Of a stretch of DNA of 33,049 bases, positions 2 through 19,370 are shown piece after piece. Positions within the stretch are counted from its first letter, which is position 1, and each line of letters begins with the position of its first letter. Both the position numbers and the translations under genes were made by a program. Under the pieces are notes generated by a model that was not told where the DNA came from, searched no databases, and saw only the letters and a program-made list of their open reading frames with translations. The DNA comes from Bacteroidota bacterium. GTDB taxonomy: Bacteria > Bacteroidota > Bacteroidia > UKL13-3. The stretch spans positions 1 to 33,049 of the forward strand of contig CANGGG010000035.1 of NCBI GenBank assembly GCA_947453415.1, written 5' to 3'.

Positions 2-3000
2 CAGATTTTTCTTGATACAGAGAGAGATAGAGCAGTTTCTTCTAGCGGTTGGAATAATACATTGCGTATTAAAACTTCAGAATTTAGCAGATCGGAATTT
101 AATAATAAAATCAATAATATTTTATTACCTGCAATTAATAATGACTACATAAAAATTTGTGCTAATAATTATAATAATCCGATATGGGACACGACAATTG
201 GAAAAGAAGTTATGCAAGTAACATTAATTCCATTCGGTATATCTCGTATTCAGAGATCAATATTAGAAGCTATATCTCATAATACCTTACCAATTGATAA
301 AGAAATTTGGAAAATTGCAGTATTAGAAAGAGACGTACCATGTGCTCAATTAGCAATAGATGATTTACAAAAACTTATTGAGGAACTAAATAATCTTGCT
401 TTTGAACAATTAATAATTCCCCAAATTGAACTACATATTTATTCTACTGATGAATTTATCGATAGTGATTTCCAAATAAAAAATGCCAAATTGATAGATA
501 GTTTTAAATCTGACGAATTTTATGATTTAGTAATTGATATAGCAATTCTAGACAGAAATACAAATTCAACACATATTGCGGCTAATACTCCCGAAATAAT
601 TAATATTCGTTCAGTACATTACCTTGATACAAAAAGAGTAATGGCTACTACAAAATTAATTAAATACAAACCATTTTGTGCAATTTCAAATAAAGACGGA
701 CTATGGGTAATAAATGATTTAACTATGAAAAATAGTTTAGATTATTTACTACAATCTATATTCCGTAAAAAAGAATTTCGCCCAGGTCAATTACCAATCA
801 TGCACAATGCTTTACAATGCAAAAGTGTAATTGGCTTGTTACCAACAGGCGGTGGTAAATCATTAACTTACCAACTATCTGCTTTATTACAACCTGGGAT
901 TTGCCTAGTCATTGATCCTATTAGGTCATTAATGAAAGACCAAGTTGACGGACTTTATAGAAACAATATTGATTCGTGTGTTTACATAAATTCAACATTA
1001 CAAGGAGAAGAAAAAAGAAAAGCAATGCGAAAATTGGCTGATGGCGAAGTTCAATTTGTTTTTGTTTCTCCCGAAAGATTGCAAATGGAAGAATTCCGAA
1101 ATATGTTAGATGACATGTTCAATCAAGGCTTATATTTCAGCTATTGTGTTATTGATGAAGCACACTGCGTTTCAGAATGGGGACATGATTTTAGAACAGC
1201 TTATTTACGATTAGGTGAGAATGCTATAAAATATTGTAAAACAAAAAATTTGGAACACCTTCCATTATTTGGTTTAACAGCAACAGCATCCTATGATGTG
1301 TTAGCTGATGTGCAAAGAGAATTATCAGGTAATGATGAAGCAAGAAGGCTTACAGAAGATGCAGTAGTAAGGTCTGAATACACTAAAAGGAATGAATTAC
1401 AATATGTAATAGAAGAAGTAACATTTCCAACAGATGCCCTAAACAACATTTGGGCTTTAAAAAGAGAGTTAAGTTCAAAAAAGCAAGAACGTATAAAAAG
1501 ATTATTAATTGATATTCCTCAAACTATCAATGAGTTTCTTTCTGAACCTACTTTAGTTTTTAGTCTAAATGATTGGGAACTAAACGAAAATGGTGAAAAA
1601 GAAGCTTTTGAAAAAATGCAACTTGAAAAATATATTCCAGAAAATTTCTACTATGATAATAATGCAGCTTTAGTATTTTGCCCTCATACTAAAGGTTCAT
1701 TTGGTGTAACTGATAAATTTAAAATAGATATAGTAGGAATGCCCGTGGTTCGTGAAGGATATTATGATATTCTTTCAACTATACATAGTATTAACGCTGG
1801 CTACTTCATGGGTTCTGGAAATGATTCAGACACTAAAGGAAAAGTAATTCAAGAAGAATCATTTGATAATCAAGATAAATTCATAAATAGTGAATTGAAT
1901 ATGATGGTAGCTACGAAAGCATTTGGTATGGGTATCGACAAGGAAAATATAAGATACACAGTTCATGTTAACTATCCAGGATCTATCGAGAGTTATGTGC
2001 AGGAAGCTGGTCGTGCAGGAAGAGACCGTAAAATAGCCCTTTCCTACATTCTCTTCAATGATCAAGAAGTTTATCTTCCTAATGAAGAAGAACTTATAGA
2101 CCACGATCTTGACATTAATATGTACTTTCATAAAAATTCATTCAAAGGGGTTGTTAAGGAATTAGCAGTATTGGATGAATTACTGACAGAGATATATTTT
2201 CCCGACCGTACATTTGAATTAGAAAATTTAATTAATAATGAATTTGATACAAACGTAAAATGCAATTATTGGGAAGGTGGAGCTAATAAAAGACTTTATA
2301 TTAATTTTAATTTTTCAGAGCCATTAGGTTATTTAGATTTAAATTCTTTAAATAGTTTTCAGGGTGGTAGCATAAACCATAGCTTATCAAGTGATATTTT
2401 CCTACTTTTAAAAAAATATATTGAAAATCTTAATTTAACAGAGTCAGTCCATTTGTGGATACAAAGAAGCGATAAAATTTCAGGTATTGAAGAAATCCTA
2501 AAATCAAAGCGTACGGGTGATTCATTTGATATTACTGTTGGTTTTTATAATAATGCAAAAGAGCGAGTTAAAACGATTACTAAATGGCTACATGATGTGA
2601 TCCACAATAATTTTACTGAACAAATTGTTCAACGAATGAGAGCTAATTGTTCGGATGCTGAAGCATTTATTGAAGAAGTTTGCGATAACTTTCTAAGATT
2701 CACAGGCGGAGCTACTCTTGATTTTGAAACACTATGCACCAACAGAGATGTAACACGAGGAAATACTAAAGGAACAACTTTTAAAATGTTCATGGCATAT
2801 TACAATGGTTATCGTGATAAAATGGATACTGAAAAAGCAATATATCGTCTATCAACTTTAGGTATAATTGATGATTATACTGTAAATTTCTCTTCAAATA
2901 CTTTTTCTTTAAAAGGAACAAAAAAAACAGAAGAAGAATATACAAATACTCTTAAGGGCTTTCTTTTAAAATACTATTCTGAAAAAACCACAAGTATTAG

Positions 3001-3730
3001 ATTAAAGACTTTGGCGAAAATTGATGAGCCAACACAAATAAGAAAATCAATCAATTTTCTTGTAAATTTTGTTTACAAAGAAATTCAGAAGAAGCGAAAA
3101 CTGGCAATGCAAGATATGAAAACTGCTTGTCGAATTGGATTAGAAAAAGGGAGTGTTGAACTTAAAGATTACATTGATTTATATTTTAACTCAAAATATG
3201 CTAGAGTAGGATATTCTTATATTAATGAAAAGGAAGTAGAAGTTAATGCATCATTACCTGATTTAACTGGCAATGGAATTAATGATGATTTAAAATGGGT
3301 TTGGAAATTTATTGATATTGTTGAAGAAGATCCAAAAGCAGGACAAATCGACAATATAAAACACCTTAGAGGTGCATGTACTCGAATGCTAAATAATCAG
3401 CCTGATAGCTATACTTTATTATTGTTAAATGCTTTTGCCCTATATATGTTAGAATTCAAAAATCCGAGGTATTTATTTGAAGCTGAAAATCTAATAATTA
3501 CTGCTTTTTCAAATATCATGGAAAAAGAGTCAGATTGGGATGATAATAAATTAGAGGAAATATATAATAAATTTGTATCAATAGTAATAGATAAAAATAC
3601 AGAGTTAGAAGCAAATATGGAGAAAAATAATTTCTCTTTCGATTTCGATTCGGTATTGATTAAGAGATTATTATATCCATTACAAAAAGCAAATAACCTA
3701 CTGCAATCACTTAACGAAATATTAGAATAA
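2..3730 (+). CDS. RecQ-like superfamily 2 DNA helicase, 5' end outside the window
   Basis: The reading frame is open to the left edge, so the N-terminus is missing; a TTG at 62 is only an internal possibility. The helicase core is clear: a RecQ Q-motif-like FRPGQ near 779, Walker A GLLPTGGGKS near 835, DEAH box DEAHCVSEWGHDFR near 1153, motif III GLTATAS near 1270, motif V ATKAFGMGIDKENI near 1912 and motif VI QEAGRAGRDR near 2000. Between motif III and motif IV (LVFCPHT, near 1672) lies an insert of well over 100 residues. After motif VI I see no cysteine cluster of the RecQ zinc-binding domain and no obvious HRDC domain; instead about 560 residues of unrecognised, mainly helical sequence follow. 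The next gene begins 1 nt after the stop, so it heads a cluster with 3732-8015. Long RecQ-like helicases of this sort occur in anti-phage systems (Shango includes one), but assignment to any named system is only inference. Confidence 0.85.
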   Translation, partial: QIFLDTERDRAVSSSGWNNTLRIKTSEFSRSEFNNKINNILLPAINNDYIKICANNYNNPIWDTTIGKEVMQVTLIPFGISRIQRSILEAISHNTLPIDKEIWKIAVLERDVPCAQLAIDDLQKLIEELNNLAFEQLIIPQIELHIYSTDEFIDSDFQIKNAKLIDSFKSDEFYDLVIDIAILDRNTNSTHIAANTPEIINIRSVHYLDTKRVMATTKLIKYKPFCAISNKDGLWVINDLTMKNSLDYLLQSIFRKKEFRPGQLPIMHNALQCKSVIGLLPTGGGKSLTYQLSALLQPGICLVIDPIRSLMKDQVDGLYRNNIDSCVYINSTLQGEEKRKAMRKLADGEVQFVFVSPERLQMEEFRNMLDDMFNQGLYFSYCVIDEAHCVSEWGHDFRTAYLRLGENAIKYCKTKNLEHLPLFGLTATASYDVLADVQRELSGNDEARRLTEDAVVRSEYTKRNELQYVIEEVTFPTDALNNIWALKRELSSKKQERIKRLLIDIPQTINEFLSEPTLVFSLNDWELNENGEKEAFEKMQLEKYIPENFYYDNNAALVFCPHTKGSFGVTDKFKIDIVGMPVVREGYYDILSTIHSINAGYFMGSGNDSDTKGKVIQEESFDNQDKFINSELNMMVATKAFGMGIDKENIRYTVHVNYPGSIESYVQEAGRAGRDRKIALSYILFNDQEVYLPNEEELIDHDLDINMYFHKNSFKGVVKELAVLDELLTEIYFPDRTFELENLINNEFDTNVKCNYWEGGANKRLYINFNFSEPLGYLDLNSLNSFQGGSINHSLSSDIFLLLKKYIENLNLTESVHLWIQRSDKISGIEEILKSKRTGDSFDITVGFYNNAKERVKTITKWLHDVIHNNFTEQIVQRMRANCSDAEAFIEEVCDNFLRFTGGATLDFETLCTNRDVTRGNTKGTTFKMFMAYYNGYRDKMDTEKAIYRLSTLGIIDDYTVNFSSNTFSLKGTKKTEEEYTNTLKGFLLKYYSEKTTSIRLKTLAKIDEPTQIRKSINFLVNFVYKEIQKKRKLAMQDMKTACRIGLEKGSVELKDYIDLYFNSKYARVGYSYINEKEVEVNASLPDLTGNGINDDLKWVWKFIDIVEEDPKAGQIDNIKHLRGACTRMLNNQPDSYTLLLLNAFALYMLEFKNPRYLFEAENLIITAFSNIMEKESDWDDNKLEEIYNKFVSIVIDKNTELEANMEKNNFSFDFDSVLIKRLLYPLQKANNLLQSLNEILE

Positions 3731-3731
3731 A

Positions 3732-4607
3732 ATGGCAAATCCAATTGTACAACAAATCAATACTGAATTAGAAAATCTTAAAATTAAATTAGATGAATTT
3801 AAATCAACAGTAACTTATTTAAATAGTGCTAAGGATAAAGTGGCTTTAGCCATTGTATCTTTAAACAATTCAGAAAACCATTTTGATTTAAAAGTAGAGG
3901 AACTAAAAAATACATATAATTCAATTATTAAATTAACAGATTCTGTTTCAAGTATTTTATCTAAAATTGATACTATAAACTTTCCAGAAAGATTAGATAG
4001 TATTGAAAAAACTGTTAAGGAAACTATTACAGAAATTAATGGGATAAAAAATGATACTTTGATTGAACTATATAAAGCCACTGAGGTAATATCTAAGTCT
4101 GATTTTGAAGGGAAATTTCAAAATCTTCAAAAAGCAATTAATAATTCAATTTTATCAAATGAAAACCTTGTAAATTCAATTGAAAAACAAAAGTTATCTG
4201 AAAAAATTGAAGAATCTGAAAAAAACATCAAATCAAAGTTAGAAACATCAATTTTTGAATTACAAAAAAGCACAAAATTAATTTCTTCGGAAGCAATAAA
4301 AACAATTAGTGATTTAAACATTCCAACTCATTTAGAAAAAATAGATACAACAATTAATTCTATAAATCAAGGCATTCAGACTACACAAAAACAAATTGGT
4401 GAAATTGAAAGAAATATAAAAGAAGAAATATTTTCAAAATTTAAAGATTTAAAATCAAAATTTGAATTAACATCAAAAGATACACAAGTTGATTTAAAAA
4501 ACATTTCAAAAAGTATTACCTTCTTGAAAATACTCCTGTTTATTTCAATTATTTTATTAATTGGAAATATTTTTTTAAGTATGATTTTGAAAATTAAATT
4601 CCGATAA
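3732..4607 (+). CDS. Coiled-coil protein with C-terminal transmembrane anchor
   Basis: The 291-residue product is almost entirely charged, heptad-like helix rich in Lys, Glu, Asn and Ser (residues about 1-260). One strongly hydrophobic segment at about 264-286 ends in a short basic tail (KIKFR). That predicts a C-tail-anchored inner-membrane protein with a long cytoplasmic coiled coil. There is no signal peptide and no enzymatic motif. The ATG lies 1 nt after the helicase stop, which implies translational coupling. Its first 40 residues resemble the start of the protein at 7557-8015 (pattern E(L/I)xxLKxxVxYI/LxxAK), so the two may be related anchors. Function is unknown; a scaffold or sensor that brings the helicase or the cold-shock-domain protein to the membrane is inference. 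Confidence 0.8.
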   Translation: MANPIVQQINTELENLKIKLDEFKSTVTYLNSAKDKVALAIVSLNNSENHFDLKVEELKNTYNSIIKLTDSVSSILSKIDTINFPERLDSIEKTVKETITEINGIKNDTLIELYKATEVISKSDFEGKFQNLQKAINNSILSNENLVNSIEKQKLSEKIEESEKNIKSKLETSIFELQKSTKLISSEAIKTISDLNIPTHLEKIDTTINSINQGIQTTQKQIGEIERNIKEEIFSKFKDLKSKFELTSKDTQVDLKNISKSITFLKILLFISIILLIGNIFLSMILKIKFR

Positions 4608-4630
4608 CTATTTTTTATTTTTTTTATTAT

Positions 4631-7552
4631 ATGACTATAAATTCAAATAAGATTCAAGAAGGTACAATTATATTTTGGAATAAAGTATATGGTTTTATTC
4701 AAATTTCAAGTGAATATTCTATATTTTTCCATAAATCGAGTGTTCTTTTATTAAATGAATCTAATTTAAATTTACTAGATAAAGTTTCTTTTCAAGTTTC
4801 TAACGCAACAAATGGCAGACATCAAGGAAAAGAAATAGCAATTAATGTTGAAAAAACTGGAAATTTTGATTTACAGGATTATGATAGATTTGTAGGTAAA
4901 ATAATAAAATGGAATGGCAAAACAGGCGAAATCATAAGCCCACCACAAAAAAAACACATAATTTTTTTTAGTACTAGAAAACTTTATGATATTGATTTAT
5001 TTAAAAAAGATGATCTAGTTGTATTTAATCAAGTTATATCAAATAAAAATCCTGACCAATTATTTGCACTTTTTGCTTATCCTATTAATAGGGAAAAGGA
5101 TATAATTTTTCTACAGCAAGCATATTTTGATTGTAAATTTAGTGATATAGAAAATTATATAGATAAACTGATTTTAGAACAAAATTATTATACTGATTTT
5201 GAATTGTTCGAATTGAAATTATTGCGATTAGGTAAAATAGACAGTCAAAAATCTTTTTTAAAATTGGTCTCATTAATAAATGAAAGTAGTAAAAGAAATT
5301 TTTGTCCACCATATTCATTATTAAAGGTTTATTGCACTGAAATCTATTTAATTCAACTTTGGGAAATGAAATTAATTCCTGAGATTGATATTAAAATAAT
5401 TAAGGAGTATTTCCACAATACAAATTCTGAAAATAAAAGAATTATTATCCTTAAACTTAGTGAAATTGAAAAGTTTGAAGTATTAGAAAACCATTTTGAA
5501 AAATTGATTTTGGAAGGGTACCTATTCAATATAAATAATAATTTAAAAACCTTATTAGACATTACATTTAGAGATGAAAAAAGTAGATGCATAGAAATAT
5601 ATAATAAAGTAAAAACATTATTATTTAAAGAATTAAATAATAATGAATTAGTTTTTTTATGGCTTAATGGGTATATAGATAAAATAGATGAAAGAATAAT
5701 TGTAGAAAATTTTGATATTAATGTTTCCAGCAATTTAAAATTATTATTTTCAAATAAAACAGAAAAAAATATTGATATAGTTAAAAATATTTTCGAAAAT
5801 TATTTTTTTGAACTATCACAAATCGACTTTAATGATAATTTCCCTATAATAGTAATAAGATTTATTAATTTCAATACTTTTTTCAAAGATAGATTCAAAG
5901 AAATAATAAATGATATTATTACCAGGTTTAATAATTATCAAAAATTTATTTTATGGGTATTTAACGTACCTTTTAAATTTGATGCTTTTGACTATCTCGA
6001 TAAAAATTATTTAGACATAAATGACTTTTATAAAATAAAATTTTTTATTCATAAATCAACTGATTTAAAAAAAACATTGAACCTAAATTTATTGAATAAA
6101 GTAAATATTAATGAAATAAATTTAATAAATTACATTTATCAAAATCCCTGGAATGAACTAATTCATCCTACTGAAATATTTCCATCTGATAAAAGTAATT
6201 GTTATTTTTTATTGGATTTATTAAATTTTATCGAAAAGTATAAACTTGAAAATATTGATATCGAAAACATTAGTTTATCTATTTTTAATTCTTTACCAAA
6301 ATATAAAGTACATCATTTGAGATTATGGCTATATGATTACGTAATTAATAAATATGATTATGTTGGCTTTAGATCAAGTTATAATTTATTAAATTCAATT
6401 GAAAAAAAAATATTTAAACATAAATTAAACGATGTAATATATCATGAAGATGTAGTTATGCCAGAATTTTTAGAGGTTATTCCATGTAATTTAATTATTA
6501 ATAAAACTGAATTTTCTACAATATATGATGCTAAAATTGAAAATATTTATTTTGAAAACAATAAATTTAAATTAAGAACTGAAAATGAATTATATACTGA
6601 ATATTATATTGAAAAATACTCAAGTTCAGGGTTTAATAGAATTCCATCAAATGACATTTTAAATAATTTTGAAATAGTAATTGAAGTTAGTAATGAAAAT
6701 AAAATAATAAATGTAAGTGGCTTAGAAGAGATATTTACGCAAATACATACAGATAGTATTAAACGTTCTTCAGGGGGATCATTGGTAAATAAAAAAAGCA
6801 GAAAAGTTGAAGAGTCATATGTTGAAAATTGGGAGCTAAGAAAAGAAATTATAACTTATCTTGAAAATAACCAAACAAAGAATTTTAATTCAAAAAGTGT
6901 ATGGGAACCTAAAAATCGTTTTAGAAGATTAGATGAATATTCTGGAATTGATTCACTTGAATTAACTCGTTTATTTACAATTGATACAAAAGATGGTTAT
7001 GGAATTGTATGGGAAAACATTGACTTAATGGATGATCGTGCAACTTATGTTTTCAAATCAAATTTTGAATCTATAACTACACAAATTAGTAAAATTGCAA
7101 ATAGTATTGTGAATTATGCACAATTTCGTTCATCTTTATTAAGTGTTAGTAAAAGCAAAGAAACAAAAACATTTAAATCAAATTTAGGTCTAATTGGTAC
7201 AATAAGAAATGAGAGAGGTGGGAATAATTCCTTTGAAAAATGGCTTGATAAACTAAATAAACATTTATCAGAAGATATTCCGAATATTCCATCTGATGAA
7301 GAACTTAGTACAATTGAAAATTGGAAATCAGAAACTGGTAATTCAAAAGCAACTGGTAAAAAATGGGAAACAGGTGTTGTAAATGGTAAGTCTATAAATG
7401 ATGTAAAAGTTAAAAATATTCCGTTGGATCCCTCTAAAAATGAAATAAATAATATAGAAAAAAATAACAATTTAGAATTACAAAAAAAACAGGAAATATT
7501 AACCGCACTTAAAACTTTTAACAGTCAATTCTTAGAAAATTTTAAATATTAA
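4631..7552 (+). CDS. Large protein with two N-terminal cold-shock-like domains, function unknown
   Basis: This 973-residue protein starts with a cold-shock domain at about residues 7-72. The pattern is GTIIFWNKVYGFIQ, then IFFHKSSV, then LLDKVSFQV: the yGFI and FFH nucleic-acid-binding strands are both present. A second, more divergent copy lies at about 85-155 (GKIIKWNGKTGEI, then HIIFFSTRKL, then KDDLVVFNQV). Residues 160-690 are helical, rich in Asn, Ile, Lys and Phe, and unrecognised. A C-terminal part (about 715-880) has a more conserved look (GIDSLELTRLF, then DGYGIVWENIDLMDDRATY). Cold-shock domains bind single-stranded RNA or DNA, so nucleic-acid sensing is a reasonable inference for the N-terminus. 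No nuclease or ATPase motif is visible. It sits 23 nt after the first coiled-coil gene and 4 nt before the second. The base composition is strikingly A+T-rich. Confidence 0.8.
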   Translation: MTINSNKIQEGTIIFWNKVYGFIQISSEYSIFFHKSSVLLLNESNLNLLDKVSFQVSNATNGRHQGKEIAINVEKTGNFDLQDYDRFVGKIIKWNGKTGEIISPPQKKHIIFFSTRKLYDIDLFKKDDLVVFNQVISNKNPDQLFALFAYPINREKDIIFLQQAYFDCKFSDIENYIDKLILEQNYYTDFELFELKLLRLGKIDSQKSFLKLVSLINESSKRNFCPPYSLLKVYCTEIYLIQLWEMKLIPEIDIKIIKEYFHNTNSENKRIIILKLSEIEKFEVLENHFEKLILEGYLFNINNNLKTLLDITFRDEKSRCIEIYNKVKTLLFKELNNNELVFLWLNGYIDKIDERIIVENFDINVSSNLKLLFSNKTEKNIDIVKNIFENYFFELSQIDFNDNFPIIVIRFINFNTFFKDRFKEIINDIITRFNNYQKFILWVFNVPFKFDAFDYLDKNYLDINDFYKIKFFIHKSTDLKKTLNLNLLNKVNINEINLINYIYQNPWNELIHPTEIFPSDKSNCYFLLDLLNFIEKYKLENIDIENISLSIFNSLPKYKVHHLRLWLYDYVINKYDYVGFRSSYNLLNSIEKKIFKHKLNDVIYHEDVVMPEFLEVIPCNLIINKTEFSTIYDAKIENIYFENNKFKLRTENELYTEYYIEKYSSSGFNRIPSNDILNNFEIVIEVSNENKIINVSGLEEIFTQIHTDSIKRSSGGSLVNKKSRKVEESYVENWELRKEIITYLENNQTKNFNSKSVWEPKNRFRRLDEYSGIDSLELTRLFTIDTKDGYGIVWENIDLMDDRATYVFKSNFESITTQISKIANSIVNYAQFRSSLLSVSKSKETKTFKSNLGLIGTIRNERGGNNSFEKWLDKLNKHLSEDIPNIPSDEELSTIENWKSETGNSKATGKKWETGVVNGKSINDVKVKNIPLDPSKNEINNIEKNNNLELQKKQEILTALKTFNSQFLENFKY

Positions 7553-7556
7553 TTAC

Positions 7557-8015
7557 ATGGAAAACAAAAATGAACAAAGTATTGAAGAAATATTATTTAA
7601 TGAAATTTCAAAACTTAAAACTGCTGTTGAATACATAGAAAAAGCTAAAACTTCTATTGAAAAATACGAAAAATATGATTCTAGATTTCAAGAATATATT
7701 TCAGAAATAAATTCATCTAGAATTCATAATAATGGAACTGTTAACTTAATTTCAAAATTTGAAAAAAAACAAAATGATTTAATTGTAGAATGTAAAGTAT
7801 TAAAAAAATCAAATGATGAATTTAAATCTCAAATAGAGATTTTACATAAAACAATAAAAAATATCAAAAAAAATAATTTAATAATTAATATTTTTAGTTT
7901 TATCATTTCTATTTCCGCAATTCTATTTAGCTTTATTTTGTTATACAACTTGGATGAATATTTTAGAAATTTTATTCTAAAATATTCAAGTGAATTTATA
8001 AAAATTATTCTTTAG
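7557..8015 (+). CDS. Small coiled-coil protein with C-terminal membrane anchor
   Basis: The 152-residue product has a charged helical N-terminal part (about 1-105) followed by a hydrophobic segment at about 108-130 and a 20-residue tail. It looks like a shorter relative of the protein at 3732-4607: both open with an E(L/I)xxLKxxVxY(I/L)xxAK pattern and both end in a single transmembrane helix. The ATG is 4 nt after the upstream stop, so it closes the four-gene cluster. No enzymatic signature is present. Beyond it the next gene is convergent, and I see no strong terminator hairpin in the 49-nt gap. Confidence 0.75.
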   Translation: MENKNEQSIEEILFNEISKLKTAVEYIEKAKTSIEKYEKYDSRFQEYISEINSSRIHNNGTVNLISKFEKKQNDLIVECKVLKKSNDEFKSQIEILHKTIKNIKKNNLIINIFSFIISISAILFSFILLYNLDEYFRNFILKYSSEFIKIIL

Positions 8016-9235: not shown

Positions 9236-10519
9236 TCACTCTATTTTAGTTTTACCCAACAAATCATCAAACTTTGACTTCATGGTTGGGTTGTTATGAG
9301 TTAATTTTTTAATGGTTAAATCTTCTGTTTTCTCATTTGCAAGTCGCAGGTTATTTTCCGATGATAACAATGATACCTTGGTTTTTTCTAATTCTTTTAT
9401 TGTTTTATCTATACCGTCAATGGCTTCTTTGAATTTACGACTTGCCAAATCATAATTTCTTGCAAAGCCATCTTTAAAAGTGTTCATTTTATCCTCAAAA
9501 TTGGTAATATCTATATTCTGACTTCTTACCAATGCAAGTTCTGATTTATATTGCATAGAGTTCATGGCAGCATTACGAAGTAAGGTAATAATAGGAATAA
9601 AAAACTGTGGGCGCACCACATACATTTTGTTGTACTTGTGCGACACATCAACAATTCCTGAGTTATAAAGCTCACTATCTGTTTCTAATAGTGAAACCAA
9701 CACTGCATATTCACATTTCTTTTCTGTGCGGTCTTTGTCAAGTTCTTTTAAAAAATCTTCATTTCTTTTTTTCGTTGCAGTTTCATCTCCCTCATTCTTC
9801 ATTTCGAACATAATAGAGATGATTTCATTACCCGAATCATCCAATTCTTTGTATATAAAATCACCCTTACTCCCCGACTTTGAATCATTGTCTTTTTCAA
9901 AATAGGCTTTTTGAAATGCAGTTGCACGAAGTTTGTTAAACTCAATCTCGCAATGTTGTTCAAGCGTTTCGCCTATCATTTTAGTCGATAATTTGAGTTT
10001 CATGTCTTTTACACGGGCTATCTCATCGTCCTTGTATTTTATAATTGCATCTTTACTTTGCAATTCTGTTGAATACTGATGCTTTAGTGAGCTTTCAAGG
10101 TTTTGCTTTTCTAGTTCTTTGGTCTTTAAATCATTTGCTAAAGAGTCTCTTTCTTTTTCTATTTTTTGAACGGCTTCCGTAACTTTAAGTTTAGTCTCTA
10201 ATTCAGCCTTCTGTATTTTAGATAACATTTCAGTAATTTCAGCTGTTTTTTCTGCTAACTGTGATGAAAGATCTTGTTGATTTTTAGCTTGCAGTGCTAT
10301 TATTTCTTTGTCCTTTTTTACTAAATTTTCTTGCAATGAATTTCTAAGATTCGCTTCAGCCAGTTTAATCGCATTTTCTTTTTCTTTTTCAGCAATGGCT
10401 AATCGCTGTAGTATTTCTTCTTCAAATCTATGGTCTCTAACTTGCTTTAAAATATCAGCAAAACCAGCTTCATCTACTTTAAATACTTTATTACAATGTG
10501 GGCAAATAATTTCGTTCAT
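9236..10519 (-). CDS. DUF2130 protein with PD-(D/E)XK nuclease-like signature
   Basis: The protein is 427 residues. It starts with a CPHC knuckle (residues 6-9), continues with a long coiled coil (about 30-180) and then the DUF2130 core. The core shows a D...ExK pattern at about 219-245: KGDFIYKELDD, then SIMFEMKNEGD. This matches the catalytic layout of PD-(D/E)XK nucleases (Asp on one strand, Glu-x-Lys on the next). A further helical tail covers about 320-427. DUF2130 proteins are common hypothetical genes in accessory regions; a DNA-cleaving role is inference from the motif. The start codon lies about 40 nt after the stem-loop element at 10559-10692, and the gene is followed by the antitoxin remnant. 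Confidence 0.8.
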   Translation of the reverse strand: MNEIICPHCNKVFKVDEAGFADILKQVRDHRFEEEILQRLAIAEKEKENAIKLAEANLRNSLQENLVKKDKEIIALQAKNQQDLSSQLAEKTAEITEMLSKIQKAELETKLKVTEAVQKIEKERDSLANDLKTKELEKQNLESSLKHQYSTELQSKDAIIKYKDDEIARVKDMKLKLSTKMIGETLEQHCEIEFNKLRATAFQKAYFEKDNDSKSGSKGDFIYKELDDSGNEIISIMFEMKNEGDETATKKRNEDFLKELDKDRTEKKCEYAVLVSLLETDSELYNSGIVDVSHKYNKMYVVRPQFFIPIITLLRNAAMNSMQYKSELALVRSQNIDITNFEDKMNTFKDGFARNYDLASRKFKEAIDGIDKTIKELEKTKVSLLSSENNLRLANEKTEDLTIKKLTHNNPTMKSKFDDLLGKTKIE

Positions 10520-10558
10520 ATATTTTCAGTTTGTTTTTATATTTGTTGTTTTATGTTG

Positions 10559-10692
10559 TATAACGTTTTGGGGCTTGGCGAAGTGGGGGGATTTGAAGTA
10601 CAAATGTTCAATTTAGCACTAATGTTGATAGAAGTACAAATGCTCAATTTAGCACTAATGCCCCCATTTTGCCAAACCCCTGTTAGCGGCTG
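10559..10692. repeat. Imperfect stem-loop with two internal 30-nt direct repeats, attC-like
   Basis: The left arm (10559-10590, TAACGTTTTGGGGCTTGGC and onward) pairs with the right arm (10660-10692, GCCAAACCCCTGTTAGCGG), with G-T wobbles and one small bulge. The loop carries two copies, 29/30 identical, of a repeat beginning GAAGTACAAATG (10595-10624 and 10631-10660, period 36). Read on the gene strand it begins CGCTAAC and ends GTTATAC, close to but not exactly the RYYYAAC/GTTRRRY boxes of integron attC sites. It lies between a stop codon (10703) and the next start codon (10519), as an attC would. Calling it a recombination site is inference. Confidence 0.6.
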
Positions 10693-10702
10693 CCCCCTTT
10701 TA

Positions 10703-12664
10703 TCATTTGAGTAATTCAGTCATTTTTTCGCTGTGTTCTTTTATTTCATTATGGTTGTTCGTGCCATTTGTGTCCCAATGTTCATATTCCATCATAATGC
10801 GTTGTTTTATGCTGTCAATTGTCGTGCTACCTGTGTAATAATCTTTCTTTGCGACTGGCATAAAATTGCTCAAACGTGAATTTTTACTTCCACTAATTAG
10901 ACATAAATTTCCGAAATTGTCTAACCAAACAGCATCTTGTCCTTGTAAAATTAAGTTCTCGTCAATTGGGTGTTGTGGATAATAATGCTCAACCGAACTT
11001 CTAAATGTGTATTCAAAGTCTTTTACACGGTTGTCTGAAAATACTTGTCCATTTTTGATTTTGAAATAGTTTTTGTTAGCTCTATAATCTTGCCACAACA
11101 AATAATCAAGATAGTTGAAAATAAAGTTTTCTACGGCTGTTCCTTGATTGATTTTGTTGGTGTCAATATCGGTTAGTGAATTTTTTTGTATGCCGTTATT
11201 TGTGTAGATTATTTCAAAATAATCTTTTTGGTTCTTTGCTAAAAATCTGTCGTTTAAGAAAGTTTTTGCAAGATTTTCAAGATACGATTTATAATCGTTT
11301 GCTAGATTAGTTTCAGAATATTCTACAACGAATTTCAACGAAGCGTTTAACCAATGCTTGTAAACCAAAGTAGGGTTTGAAACGTGAAACATTGATAACA
11401 ACATTAGAATTTCTCTGTTTACACCGTCATTGGTTTCTGTATTGTCTGCATCAAATGTATTTACATAACTTACTTTGTTACCATCATACCATTTTAGTCG
11501 TTTTAAACTCCAATGGTCTGTGCCTTTTGCAAACTCTCTTTTTATAACATACTTGTCAAAATTAAACTTGCCTTTCAATAAATTGTAACCAAATTCTTTT
11601 ACAAATTCTTTGTCATTTTTGTAAAAAGGTTCAAATATTTCCAATAAGCGTTTGTCATCTAATGGAACATCGGATTTTGTTTGTATTCTTAAAATGTGAA
11701 GTAGGAAGTTTGCAAAATTGATAATCGTATTAAATCTATCAGGGCTTTCATCCGTAGTGCTAGAATTGTCAGTAATTGGTTTTGCTGTTTTTACAAGAAG
11801 TTGGCTTATCGTCAAAGTTTCTTCCGTAGTTTGATTGGCTGTTGGAATTTGTAATTTCTCATAAAGAACATCTTTGCCAACTAAATTGTTCCAATCATTT
11901 TTACCAAATAGCTCATCTCTTTGTGCAACTGAAAAACCGTACTGAACATATTTTTCCATATTTGAAGTTGCTTCCCAAATCAAGTTGAAAGCATATTTCA
12001 AATTGTCATCTTCCAAAATTTCAAGCATTTTTGCTTTTAAGATTTCGTGTTTTTCTAATTGTTCGCCACGACTATTCATTATTTCAAAATAGTGATTCAA
12101 GTCTGTGTCTTCTGGAACTAAAACACGTAATATTGTAACCTTTTCAAAAAAATAAATGCAAAATTCATCAATAGACAATTTATTGTCAGCTAAAATTTTT
12201 GCTAATGATTTTTTTGCATCGTAATAACCTTGCTGAATAGCAACATTACATTCTTTATTGTCTAAACTTTCTCGGTTAAAAAGATACGAAAGTGTGTTTG
12301 AGGCAACTTTACGGCTATCAAAATTTAAATTGAGTTTTTTATACCAAGATAAATCTATTGTTGAATACTGTTTTTTGATTACATTTAACAATATGGTCAA
12401 TGTTGTTAATCGTTGCTGTCCATCTATAGTTTCATAGATTACTCCACCTTCTAATTTTCTTTCGTAAGCAATCAACGAACCAATGTAGTATTTGGGTTTG
12501 TTATCTGATATTTTACTTTTAAGAATGTAATCTACAATGTCCTGTATGAGTTGAGTTATTTGAGGTTCGCCCCATTCGTAATTTCTTTGATAAATAGGAA
12601 TTACATAGTCGTCTGAACCAAATAATGCTTTAATGCTGTAATATTTCGGTTGTTTATCATTCAT
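10703..12664 (-). CDS. DUF262/DUF1524 protein, GmrSD-like type IV restriction enzyme
   Basis: The 653-residue protein carries an N-terminal DUF262 domain: IPIYQRNYEW at 22-31 and DGQQR at 81-85, the ParB/Srx-like nucleotide-handling motif. The C-terminal part has a DUF1524 HNH-type nuclease signature, VEHYYPQ at about 557-563, then NFGNLCL and KNSRLSN at about 585-600. In GmrSD enzymes DUF262 (GmrS) binds and hydrolyses NTP while DUF1524 (GmrD) cuts modified phage DNA. The gene overlaps the upstream DUF262 gene by 8 nt, so the two are probably co-translated and may work as a complex. Its target modification cannot be read from the sequence. Confidence 0.87.
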   Translation of the reverse strand: MNDKQPKYYSIKALFGSDDYVIPIYQRNYEWGEPQITQLIQDIVDYILKSKISDNKPKYYIGSLIAYERKLEGGVIYETIDGQQRLTTLTILLNVIKKQYSTIDLSWYKKLNLNFDSRKVASNTLSYLFNRESLDNKECNVAIQQGYYDAKKSLAKILADNKLSIDEFCIYFFEKVTILRVLVPEDTDLNHYFEIMNSRGEQLEKHEILKAKMLEILEDDNLKYAFNLIWEATSNMEKYVQYGFSVAQRDELFGKNDWNNLVGKDVLYEKLQIPTANQTTEETLTISQLLVKTAKPITDNSSTTDESPDRFNTIINFANFLLHILRIQTKSDVPLDDKRLLEIFEPFYKNDKEFVKEFGYNLLKGKFNFDKYVIKREFAKGTDHWSLKRLKWYDGNKVSYVNTFDADNTETNDGVNREILMLLSMFHVSNPTLVYKHWLNASLKFVVEYSETNLANDYKSYLENLAKTFLNDRFLAKNQKDYFEIIYTNNGIQKNSLTDIDTNKINQGTAVENFIFNYLDYLLWQDYRANKNYFKIKNGQVFSDNRVKDFEYTFRSSVEHYYPQHPIDENLILQGQDAVWLDNFGNLCLISGSKNSRLSNFMPVAKKDYYTGSTTIDSIKQRIMMEYEHWDTNGTNNHNEIKEHSEKMTELLK

Positions 12665-13991
12665 AATATTTTAAGGTCTTGAAGTGTTCAACAATTTTTT
12701 CTGTTTTACTTGATTTATTTTCTTTTAAAGTTTCAAGTCGGAAGTTTAAAATTTCGTTTGGTTTAATTGTTTCCTTAATTCTTTTGAATAACTGTACTTG
12801 AGAATGTCCCTGATTGAGAGCAAAATTATCAACTGAATCAAGTCCGACTGCTTGTAATTTTAAACGCAATGAATACGCCCAAGCAAAAATTTTGTCAATA
12901 GCTTTTGATAAATCTTTATCTCCGAATTTGTCTATGTAATAAATCAAGCCACAATAAAACAGGTTGCGAATATATTTGTCTCCTATCCGAAAACTGCCAT
13001 CATAAGTTTTGATTATGTTCAATAGAGGATATTTTTCGCTCATTTCTTTTGATTTCACTTTATCAATCATAATTTGATAATGTTCTATCATTTCAAAAAA
13101 TCGTTTTCCGTTTATGATAGTTTCATCTATTTGAAATGGAAAAGCCATTTCTCGTTTATCAATATTTCTGTGATATGAACGGTTGTATTCTTCAACATAA
13201 AAGTGAGCAATGCGAAGCATTGCTGCAAAAGGATAATTTTCTTCTATGTCGGGGCTTACGCCTTTGAAAACATCAACTTCGTTCTTTGAAAAATACCGTG
13301 CAGAATGTCCATTACTCCAATTTCTGATTCTAAATAAATATTGTGAAAATAATTTTGAAAGTTTTGCTGTGTCTAAATTTTCCCACTTTTCAACTGTCTT
13401 TTTACGTTCTTCTTCTGTTGAAAAATTATTCATTTCTCGCAAGTGATATGCTTTTAGTAAGTCGTGTGGTTCAAGGTCTTTACCTCTCGAATTTTGAGAA
13501 TCAAAAAACTGAAATGCTTCTGAAATATCATTCAATACGACTTCTACCAAAGTGCATTTCTCTAAAAAAAACCAAATTGATTTTTCGTCAAAATCTGCAA
13601 TTCGTCTTTCAATTTGTTTGTAGTTATTTTGGATATTGGCTTTTGATATGTCATTAGCAAAAGATAAGTTCAAAAGTTTTGGGGCAAAACTTTTTAATGC
13701 TTTTTCTTCTTCTGTCGTCTTGTTCTGTTTTTGTGTTATTGCGAATGCAATCAACGTCAATGTAATTGTTCGTTGTTGTCCATCAACAATATCAGAAATA
13801 TTGTCGTGATTATGAACGACAACTGTTCCTAAACGATATTCTGATTTTTCTTTATGTATTAAAACATCGTCAATAAGTTGATTGACATTTTTTGTTGTCC
13901 ATTTGTATGGTCGTTGATAGCTTGGAATTTGTAAGCTGTCATTTGTAAGTAAGTCCCTTACTTTTATTATTTTCGGTTTGTTTTGTTCCAT
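12657..13991 (-). CDS. DUF262 protein (GmrS-like partner)
   Basis: The 444-residue protein has an N-terminal DUF262 domain with IPSYQRPYKW at 22-31 and DGQQR at 70-74. I find no DUF1524 HNH motif at the C-terminus, so it looks like a nuclease-less GmrS-type subunit. It is the first gene of a two-gene unit and overlaps the DUF262-DUF1524 gene by 8 nt. About 45 nt upstream of its ATG is a GTTAGCGGC sequence on the same strand (14038-14046) that recurs inverted beyond the end of the second gene. The pairing suggests a regulatory or sensing subunit plus an effector subunit; that division of labour is inference. Confidence 0.85.
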   Translation of the reverse strand: MEQNKPKIIKVRDLLTNDSLQIPSYQRPYKWTTKNVNQLIDDVLIHKEKSEYRLGTVVVHNHDNISDIVDGQQRTITLTLIAFAITQKQNKTTEEEKALKSFAPKLLNLSFANDISKANIQNNYKQIERRIADFDEKSIWFFLEKCTLVEVVLNDISEAFQFFDSQNSRGKDLEPHDLLKAYHLREMNNFSTEEERKKTVEKWENLDTAKLSKLFSQYLFRIRNWSNGHSARYFSKNEVDVFKGVSPDIEENYPFAAMLRIAHFYVEEYNRSYHRNIDKREMAFPFQIDETIINGKRFFEMIEHYQIMIDKVKSKEMSEKYPLLNIIKTYDGSFRIGDKYIRNLFYCGLIYYIDKFGDKDLSKAIDKIFAWAYSLRLKLQAVGLDSVDNFALNQGHSQVQLFKRIKETIKPNEILNFRLETLKENKSSKTEKIVEHFKTLKYYE

Positions 13992-14324
13992 TCTGTGTTT
14001 TTCAATTGCTGGGTTGCACGGTCTGTCTTGGGGTTGCCGCTAACTTGTTTATATGGATGCCTTTTGCATCTTTTTACTCCCAATTAAGATGTAATAAGAA
14101 TATATTTTAATATACTTTTCAAATATACTTTTATTTATTATTTGTAAGCATAACAAAAACTTTCCATGCAATATACTGATACTAAATTACTTTTTTACAA
14201 TACTTTTGCATGACTTCATTATTTTGGGGGGCTTTAAATAGACAAATCAACCGTTGGGATAAATTAGCACTCTTTTAGCACTGTTTTTTGTTAAACAATT
14301 GGTATTCAATGCTAATCGGAGTAT
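13992..14324. other. Gene-free end of the island with short direct repeats
   Basis: No coding sequence is supported here. It contains GTTAGCGGC read on the minus strand (14038-14046), a small hairpin GATGC-N5-GCATC near 14056-14070, two copies of AATATACTTTT (14109-14119 and 14122-14132), and two copies of TTAGCACT spaced 11 bp apart (14264-14271 and 14275-14282). Closely spaced short direct repeats beside a tRNA-like end are what integrase arm-type sites look like. No integrase gene is in the window, so this is inference. Confidence 0.45.
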
Positions 14325-14340
14325 CCCTAACTCTCCGCCA
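14325..14340 (+). other. tRNA-Ser 3'-end-like sequence, putative attachment site
   Basis: CCCTAACTCTCCGCCA matches the last bases of a serine tRNA: a T-stem-like CCCTA, acceptor strand ACTCTCC, discriminator G and CCA. The upstream bases do not form a T-arm, so there is no intact tRNA here. A terminator follows 20 nt later. This is what remains at the far junction when an element integrates into the 3' end of a tRNA gene; the full tRNA would then lie left of the window. Confidence 0.5.
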
Positions 14341-14360
14341 GTAGTAATACAAAACAAATC

Positions 14361-14396
14361 AAAAGCCCGTAAAAATCAGTGTTTACGGGCTTTTTT
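14361..14396 (+). terminator. Rho-independent terminator
   Basis: A perfect 13-bp stem (AAAAGCCCGTAAA at 14361-14373 with TTTACGGGCTTTT at 14382-14394), an 8-nt loop and a run of T follow the tRNA-like end. It probably ended the original tRNA transcript. On the minus strand it could also stop transcripts leaving the Nudix gene. Confidence 0.85.
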
Positions 14397-14467
14397 GTTT
14401 TTACCTTTTCAAAACAGGATAATTCAGATAAATGTACAATGATTTACAATTGGATTGATTGTAATTT

Positions 14468-15067
14468 TTAAACGAAATAATTATTCAAAACGTCCTTTAT
14501 ACTTTCATAAGTATTTAAATTAGTAATATTCTTTTTAGTAAAATGCTGCCATTCAACTTTAGTAATATTTTCTTCTTCTTGGGGAACCAAAAGTCCGTTA
14601 AAGGTAGTATTCATTTTATACCAAAAAGTTCTTTTTAAAATATACTTATCCTTAAAAAAATAAGTGTGATAACTTTTATAAGCCAAATATTCAATAGAAA
14701 GTCCATTTACAGCACACTCCTCCTCTACTTCTCTTAAAGCAGCAATTTCAGGTGTTTCACCTGAGTCAATTTTACCTTTTGGTAAATCCCAAACGCCTAG
14801 TCTTTCTATTAAAAGTAATTCATTATTACTGTTAAAAACCAAACCACCAGCCGCTTCTATTAATTTATAATTACTTGCAAAAAGTTGAAATACCATTTCC
14901 ACATCTTCACAAATTAAAATAATTCCTTTAAAATCAATATTTTTAGTGCTTTGCAATAAACTATCAAATAAAGTTTTGTTGAAAAAAATAGTTTCTAAAT
15001 CATCATCAATATTTAATTTTGAATTGGTAATAAAGAATGGCTTATCATTTATAAAAATTTTATACAT
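14468..15067 (-). CDS. Nudix hydrolase
   Basis: The protein is 199 residues. The Nudix box spans 98-120 (GKIDSGE, then REVEEECAV) and matches Gx5Ex7REUxEExGU except that the late Gly is Ala at 119. The preceding GVWDLPKGK is the usual lead-in. About 70 N-terminal residues form an extra domain before the Nudix fold, as in several Bacteroidota homologues. It should hydrolyse a nucleoside diphosphate linked to another moiety; the substrate is not readable. The start is only 8 bp from the divergent pyrE start, so the two promoters must reach into each other's coding sequence or the transcripts are nearly leaderless. Its location next to pyrE suggests nucleotide housekeeping. Confidence 0.88.
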   Translation of the reverse strand: MYKIFINDKPFFITNSKLNIDDDLETIFFNKTLFDSLLQSTKNIDFKGIILICEDVEMVFQLFASNYKLIEAAGGLVFNSNNELLLIERLGVWDLPKGKIDSGETPEIAALREVEEECAVNGLSIEYLAYKSYHTYFFKDKYILKRTFWYKMNTTFNGLLVPQEEENITKVEWQHFTKKNITNLNTYESIKDVLNNYFV

Positions 15068-18380: not shown

Positions 18381-18839
18381 TTATTTTAAAATTCTACTAT
18401 CAATATTCATGTCAACAAAGTTTTCAATTTCAAGTTTAAAAAACTCCTTATGCAATGAATTTATCAATAAATTACATTCCAATGGCATAATTGCAGATGG
18501 AACTTTCAATGCCAATGTTTTATTACTTTTCAACCAATTATTTCCAATAACTTTTAAAGAATCAGGGCTTGGAACTTGCTGCCAATTGGCTGGTAAATCA
18601 TTCAAAGTAATTATTTCAATTTTCACCTTGCTATCTAATTTCAAAGTTAACAAACTGGTTTGAATTGTTTTTGTAATACCACTGGCATTGCAAGCAAATT
18701 CAAGCATTGCCAAAGAAGGACTATATGATGTATATAACATTGAATTACCAACAGAATTCCATCTTCCTCCATATAATTTAGCACCTTGACCACTTAAGTC
18801 ACCAATAAATTTCTTTAAACCAAATCTATAAATAAGCAT
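18381..18839 (-). CDS. RES-domain toxin
   Basis: The 152-residue protein has the RES signature: YRF near residue 4, GGRWNSVG at 24-31, LYTSYSPSLAMLEFA at 35-49. Conserved Arg26, Tyr36 and Glu47 match the residues that bind and act on NAD in RES toxins, which deplete NAD+ (MbcT) or modify host proteins with ADP-ribose (ParT). It lies 9 nt downstream of an Xre/ParS-type antitoxin gene, the standard order of this type II module. The length is standard and it appears intact. Confidence 0.88.
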   Translation of the reverse strand: MLIYRFGLKKFIGDLSGQGAKLYGGRWNSVGNSMLYTSYSPSLAMLEFACNASGITKTIQTSLLTLKLDSKVKIEIITLNDLPANWQQVPSPDSLKVIGNNWLKSNKTLALKVPSAIMPLECNLLINSLHKEFFKLEIENFVDMNIDSRILK

Positions 18840-18848
18840 TATTTACAA

Positions 18849-19370
18849 TTAAGAAAAAATGCCATGTTCAATTCTACCCAAAACATCAGAAACCATTTTT
18901 ACACCAAAACTTGTGTCCAATAAATCTAAAGGTTTTTGATTGCCTAAAGCATAATTAGGCGTTTGAAACCATTGTTTAATTGCATCTTCATCTGAAAATA
19001 TTTGGTAAGCTTTAGCATAAACATGAGCCATTTCTATGGTTTGTTCTGATGTATAAATATCTAATGGTGAGGTTTCCTTAATACGTTGAAAATTTCGAGC
19101 GCTCATATGTAAAAGTTCACAAATTTTTTCTTGTGTTATTCCAAACTTTGCAGCCATATTAGTAACTGATTGCTTTAACAAACCATTTCTGCTTAATTTC
19201 ACTAAATCCATTTCATTTTGAAAATGAGAAGATAAATTCAATATAGATAATAATGGATTTTGAGATGCATAATAAGAAGGAGCTGGTTCATCAACAATCA
19301 TTGGGTGTTCAATGTTATTGAGTGTTTTTACTGTTCGAGTTGATTTATAAGTTTTTCCCACCCACAACAT
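18849..19370 (-). CDS. Xre/MbcA/ParS-family antitoxin
   Basis: The 173-residue protein has a helical DNA-binding part (about 63-100, including FGITQEKICELLHMS) and ends with the toxin-binding domain of the ParS/MbcA family: a IKQWFQTPNYALGNQKP segment then LLDTSFGVKMVSDVLGRIEHG. That domain covers the active site of the RES toxin encoded directly downstream. An inverted repeat TACGACA/TGTCGTA begins right at the start codon and probably is its operator, so autorepression is likely. Confidence 0.88.
   Translation of the reverse strand: MLWVGKTYKSTRTVKTLNNIEHPMIVDEPAPSYYASQNPLLSILNLSSHFQNEMDLVKLSRNGLLKQSVTNMAAKFGITQEKICELLHMSARNFQRIKETSPLDIYTSEQTIEMAHVYAKAYQIFSDEDAIKQWFQTPNYALGNQKPLDLLDTSFGVKMVSDVLGRIEHGIFS

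Follow-up and report, generated by a model that had tools for sequence, protein, structure and literature searches.

The 33,049-nt stretch of Bacteroidota DNA analyzed here (the window) appears to hold two adjoining recombination junctions, the end of a genomic island that entered a tRNA-Ser(UGA) gene and a stand-alone attI-like site that has been loaded with gene cassettes. We assign this reading a probability of about 80%. The features on which it is built are listed in Table 1. They were compared within the genome that contains the window (G000; 2.89 Mb in 107 contigs) and with a set of 77 relatives, nearly all of which are represented by draft genomes.

Table 1. Features of the window discussed in the text, from left to right
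Feature	Positions	Strand	Basis or remark
Second cassette (DUF2130 gene at 9236-10519)	9236-10563	-	Shared with G007
attC-like site of the first cassette	10561-10685	-	125 nt; TAAC, A, 20-bp stem, loop, stem, 5 nt, GTTA; 122 bits (model R1)
First gene cassette, 3480 bp, two GmrSD-type genes	10564-14043	-	In G000 only; other cassettes in G001 and G007
Gene for a 653-aa protein, GmrSD_N and GmrSD_C, type IV restriction-like	10703-12664	-	Pfam E values 9.5e-32 and 1.9e-7
Gene for a 444-aa protein, GmrSD_N and DUF7834	12657-13991	-	Pfam E values 1.3e-32 and 1.4e-77
Stand-alone attI-like site, ending ATATAAACAAG/TTA	14044-14132	-	About 90 bp; cassette insertion point 14044/14043
Island-end block separating the attI-like site from the tRNA core	14133-14322		Contains repeated TTAGCACT words
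Displaced 3' end of tRNA-Ser(UGA), ATCCCTAACTCTCCGCCA	14323-14340	+	18 nt; attachment-site core
Left end of an element that integrates at tRNA-Ser, here a probable relic	14341-14413	+	blastn; leads into an integrase gene in G036
Hairpin ending the tRNA-Ser transcript (intrinsic terminator)	14361-14394	+	Fold; twin after the intact tRNA in G004
NUDIX gene, first of the conserved right-hand side	14468-15067	-	Pfam E value 2.7e-19; in 71 of 77 relatives

A pattern search of the window located CCCTAACTCTCCGCCA on the plus strand at positions 14325 to 14340, a 16-mer for which 0.02 matches would be expected by chance with three mismatches permitted. Together with the two preceding nucleotides, it forms an 18-nt fragment that covers the end of a T loop (last 2 nt), the 3' halves of both the T stem and the acceptor stem, and G73 with CCA. 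A preliminary description of this DNA had taken the 16-mer for the end of a serine tRNA, and this assignment was borne out, as all 18 nucleotides are identical to the 3' ends of intact tRNA-Ser(UGA) genes in 10 relatives (3' end, ...GGTTCGAATCCCTAACTCTCCGCCA). The same description had noted that the remainder of the tRNA is missing and that a hairpin terminator follows. Consistent with the former, a tRNA gene search of the entire window found none. No Rfam family scored above threshold in it, and the 16-mer with its left flank folded no better than shuffled sequences. Since the tRNA body is missing from the window, the fragment is best read as a displaced tRNA end marking the end of an island. 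The hairpin, for its part, has a predicted energy of -17.4 kcal/mol (z = -5.9 relative to shuffles) and a T run on its 3' side, and a matching hairpin follows the intact tRNA in G004.

Searching the 77 relatives, we found the exact 16-mer in 12 of them in addition to the genome of the window (carriers, with the two sister copies counted, G001, G003, G004, G005, G006, G007, G009, G011, G015, G016, G018, G027, and G036). At 10 of the 12 loci inspected with ARAGORN and Rfam, an intact tRNA-Ser(UGA) ends in the 16-mer; the other two (G006 L277 and G036 L283) are bare remnants that lack a tRNA body, as in the window. In G004, which belongs to the same genus, the intact tRNA-Ser(UGA) is followed by 74 bp that are 97% identical by blastn to window positions 14341 to 14413, terminator included, and in G036, a member of another genus (g10), it is followed by a homologue of the same positions at 82% identity. 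The preliminary description had advised looking for relatives in which this terminator stands behind an unbroken tRNA-Ser. Such relatives exist, and these intact loci with a matching flank support its proposal that the fragment is a remnant of integration into the 3' end of a tRNA gene. That the 16-mer resembles a tRNA end by coincidence might be suspected from the lack of any tRNA with this end in the assembly of the window genome and from the continuation of the conserved block past the 16-mer, but the agreement of 18 of 18 letters plus the 74-bp flank with the intact G004 locus leaves this idea a vanishingly small probability. We consider it refuted by the intact tRNA-Ser(UGA) loci of relatives, which share both the 18 nt and the flank.

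The intact tRNA-Ser with this 3' end that was expected elsewhere in the same genome did not turn up in the 107-contig draft, an outcome that the preliminary description had named as one that would refute its proposal. No second copy of the 16-mer with up to two mismatches was found in this genome, nor was an intact tRNA-Ser(UGA); an anticodon-arm pattern search returned chance matches alone (nine, versus nine in a reversed control), and a search with RF00005, in which 150 of 313 candidates were scored, returned at least 29 tRNAs. The M43 protease gene that is the usual upstream neighbor of tRNA-Ser(UGA) was likewise not found in G000, and in G001 and G007 this gene is cut by contig ends. To our knowledge, tRNA-Ser(UGA) is indispensable to every bacterium. 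Given that the tRNA is essential, that the assembly is divided into 107 contigs, and that the M43 neighbor is also missing, an assembly gap is a likelier cause of the absence than true loss. No integrase gene was present among the large open reading frames scanned in the window, the far end of the island lies outside it, and the assembly yielded neither an integrase nor a far end for the tRNA-borne island.

We then considered what lies to the right of the tRNA fragment. In G036, the 74-bp homologue leads into a gene for a 416-aa integrase with Arm-DNA-bind_5, SAM_5, and catalytic domains. In G018, a congener of G036, the tRNA-Ser(UGA) is instead followed by a different sequence (flank F), which in G036 stands behind a bare 18-mer, away from the intact tRNA of that genome. 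Comparison of these two genomes indicates that G036 has a complete attL/attR pair, with a displaced fragment that still adjoins the ancestral flank. In G036, the 74-bp sequence is thus an element left end, and homology between G036 and G004 downstream of the tRNA (84% over 112 bp) assigns it the same role in G004. Since the G036 homologue is the left end of an integrase-bearing element, window positions 14341 to 14413 would have to be a relic of such an end, abutted by the tRNA fragment of a later insertion. The right flank of the window, then, does not look like pristine chromosome, its first 74 bp evidently deriving from an element family that uses this tRNA. At a more distant locus (L250; G065:C1:1022588), a tRNA-Ser end precedes an integrase region that matches the one in the G036 element at 67% identity across 901 bp, so that this family of tRNA-Ser elements extends past the family of the window genome.

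The same homology to an integrase-carrying left end could also be explained by a tandem, or attP-like, junction, at which two elements meet at the core, the right end of one against the left end of another, most of which (beyond 74 bp) was later lost next to NUDIX. In favor of this alternative, the NUDIX gene is not adjacent to tRNA-Ser(UGA) in congeners. No tRNA was seen close to NUDIX in the relatives. A resident relic flank, however, explains the data equally well, and both G004 contigs end too early to show how tRNA and NUDIX are arranged. A tandem junction is thus a real possibility, to which we give somewhat less than even odds, and we retain the relic flank abutted by an island end as the working interpretation of this side.

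To the left of the tRNA fragment, the island-end block is 89 to 90% identical in G001 and G007 and has no match in the other loci fetched. The repeated TTAGCACT words, at about 14250 to 14290, lie left of the tRNA core and may be arm sites of the island integrase. Starting from NUDIX, whose protein is 99% and 94% identical in two sister genomes, G000, G001, and G007 align leftward through the terminator, the tRNA fragment, and approximately 280 bp more, and all three alignments stop at CAAGTTA. The genes past this point differ: two GmrSD-type genes in G000, an AAA ATPase gene in G007, and an unrelated gene in G001. Homology between G007 and the window returns, at 94.7%, where the second unit with its DUF2130 gene begins. 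This pattern is the one that insertion of a cassette at a fixed site, ahead of older cassettes, would produce. The cassette junctions read CAAG/TTA and CG/TTA (slashes mark the junction), which fits insertion at G/TT. A switch from defense-type to other genes, placed by the preliminary description at the 16-mer, therefore exists, but it lies about 280 bp to the left of the tRNA fragment, at 14043/14044, and the attI-like site itself starts approximately 190 bp inside the island end.

These observations bear on whether the window is a plain tRNA island with its attR at 14323 to 14340, whose left side, cassettes included, is ordinary cargo altered by homologous or illegitimate recombination. An island boundary can be explained from the tRNA fragment alone, but such a history would have to explain why the gene exchange ends at one dinucleotide in three species, why the sequence at which it stops recurs beside a recombinase gene, and why the swapped unit terminates in an attC-like hairpin. 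We regard it as improbable and prefer the reading with two junctions. Two other gene sets in the window are recorded here. On the plus strand, opposite to the cassettes, positions 62 to 8015 hold a four-gene set that is possibly a defense system; it encodes a 1222-aa helicase near the DpdF/PsyrT profiles (PADLOC E value, 3.7e-81) and proteins of 291 aa, 973 aa (weak cold-shock domain), and 152 aa (weak Cas4-like match). On the minus strand at 18381 to 19370, a gene pair for a RES-domain toxin and an Xre/MbcA/ParS antitoxin sits on the otherwise housekeeping right side.

The attI-like site of the window has no recombinase gene beside it. It is, however, 82% identical over 113 bp to a site on another contig of the same genome (C50) that lies directly after the stop codon of a gene for a 347-aa tyrosine recombinase and is itself followed by another cassette. 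An attI site adjoins a recombinase gene in several congeners as well; the sites that follow the recombinase genes of other congeners are different ones, most of which end in ATATAAACAAG/TTA. A third copy in the genome of the window (C81) is without a recombinase gene, with the last recombinase codons still upstream, and its orthologue in G001 (C459) is 97% identical to it over 451 bp and then continues into a different cassette. G006 has two stand-alone attI sites, each followed by the same cassette. Within the window site, TATATTTG may be a cassette promoter; the attI strand folded no better than shuffled sequences. At four stand-alone sites (L216 in C81, L217, L219, and L220), the last recombinase codons (..KSPFDDLDL) stand directly upstream of attI, as if the remainder of the recombinase gene had been repeatedly deleted to almost one point.

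Stand-alone attI sites could be dead remnants that were loaded with cassettes before the recombinase gene was deleted, and retention of just the last recombinase codons before the site in the C81, C459, and G006 copies is what this would leave behind. Against it, the first cassettes differ between sister genomes at two orthologous stand-alone sites (that of the window in G000, G001, and G007, and C81 versus C459) despite flanks that are 88 to 97% identical, which suggests that cassettes were loaded after the recombinase was lost. We therefore think it rather unlikely that the sites are dead and favor attI-like sites that may still be active.

The C50 recombinase scored above the cut-off for NF040815 (XerA / integron integrase). 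Its match to TIGR02249 (integron integrase) was below the cut-off and came in two pieces, leaving positions 181 to 235 unmatched, and residues 181 to 241 of VchIntIA (PDB 2a3v) have no counterpart in it. These two gaps indicate that the IntI-specific domain is absent from this protein. That domain is a defining feature of integron integrases and has been described as required for integron recombination (PMC9668308). With a recombinase that has no such insert, the system would be integron-like in its working yet depart from integrons on one defining test. By family and by structure, the C50 protein matches XerA and XerC-like recombinases best (NF040815; PDB 4a8e and 5hxy), but it differs from them by approximately 70 extra N-terminal residues and by the attI site and cassette behind its gene.

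We examined attC-like sites with a scan for the stem offset seen in the first cassette. Across all fetched DNA, this gave 16 strong matches and 22 for the mirror image (the other strand), while other offsets gave 0 to 2. A covariance model built from 12 attC-like sites (R1) has matches in 70 of the 77 genomes and one in the window; no attC-like end was detected for the second cassette (9236 to 10563). In arrays from G024, G029, and G005, all 32 sites keep to a single strand of their locus. Pair changes on both sides were seen in 17 of 24 pairs, a count that is biased because the sites were chosen by their complementarity. The number of attC-like sites per genome (median, 8 with a recombinase and 6 without; P = 0.04) is weakly associated with the recombinase, an association that fragmentary assemblies may blur, and in 27 of the 70 genomes such sites occur without a close recombinase.

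Several further features of these sites were noted. A one-contig genome (G029) carries a large cassette array of about 58 kb (L238 to L240; G029:C1:2566000-2623999), with its attC-like sites all on one strand and five recombinase matches in the genome. The loop of the window site (10603 to 10660) contains an 18-bp tandem repeat with TTTAGCACT. In an alignment of attC-like sites (A1), there are near-constant mismatches at columns 13/118 and 22/109. The top-strand A-C at columns 22/109 corresponds to a T-G wobble in the bottom strand, and the T-G at columns 13/118 to A-C; this difference between the strands recalls the extrahelical bases of attC sites.

Taken together, the comparisons suggest the following course of events. 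A tyrosine-integrase island would have entered the 3' end of the tRNA-Ser(UGA) gene, its own copy of that end making the gene whole again on the island's other side, outside this contig, while the original 3' end and terminator stayed behind at 14323 to 14340. The flank that the island came to abut would have been the preexisting left end of an earlier element from a family using the same tRNA. The C50 tyrosine recombinase or a relative, encoded elsewhere, would act in trans on the stand-alone attI-like site, and circular cassettes would be joined to it through their attC-like hairpins at CAAG/TTA, the newest cassette standing first. Supplying attI in trans to the integrase is a routine assay set-up (PMC9668308). 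Both the cassette recombination and the order of the tRNA insertions are proposed from genome comparison.

The tRNA part of this arrangement belongs to an established type (Islander; PMC4383910), and the junction alone is ordinary. Like Islander-type islands, it has a displaced 3' tRNA fragment with a core in the T-stem region and intact tRNA genes in relatives, with a tyrosine integrase behind the tRNA as seen in G036; it differs in that the assembly of the window genome is without the intact tRNA and integrase and in that the right flank is probably a relic element end. As in the chromosomal integrons of Treponema (PMC3607928), the recombinase is transcribed toward attI, cassettes are codirectional, attC-like palindromes are present, and sites remain where the integrase is lost. 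Unlike in those integrons, the recombinase is without the IntI-specific insert, a single genome holds several attI copies, not all of them with a recombinase, and the attC-like sites measure approximately 125 nt and have a constant asymmetric spacer (1/5 nt). CALINs are attC clusters without an integrase (IntegronFinder; PMC9024848), and the window likewise holds a cassette without a neighboring integrase. It differs in having an attI-like site that appears to acquire new cassettes and, by model R1, one attC-like site, whereas a CALIN comprises two or more attC sites that lack an integrase.

The same survey lists complete integrons in Bacteroidetes proper for Salinibacter only, and no description of this arrangement of recombinase and attI in Bacteroidia was found in the literature outside subscription papers. 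That the window exemplifies a widespread integron-like system of Bacteroidia, in which an XerA-kind recombinase without the IntI insert serves several stand-alone attI sites in trans, one of them loading defense cassettes at the edge of a tRNA-Ser island, seems to us an evenly balanced proposition. The data nevertheless point to cassette capture in a phylum with almost no complete integrons in that standard survey (PMC9024848), and a recombinase without a domain held necessary for integron recombination (PMC9668308) appears to serve several docking sites. If true, this would bear on the origin of integrons from Xer-type recombinases and could account for part of the gene turnover of Bacteroidia, defense genes included.
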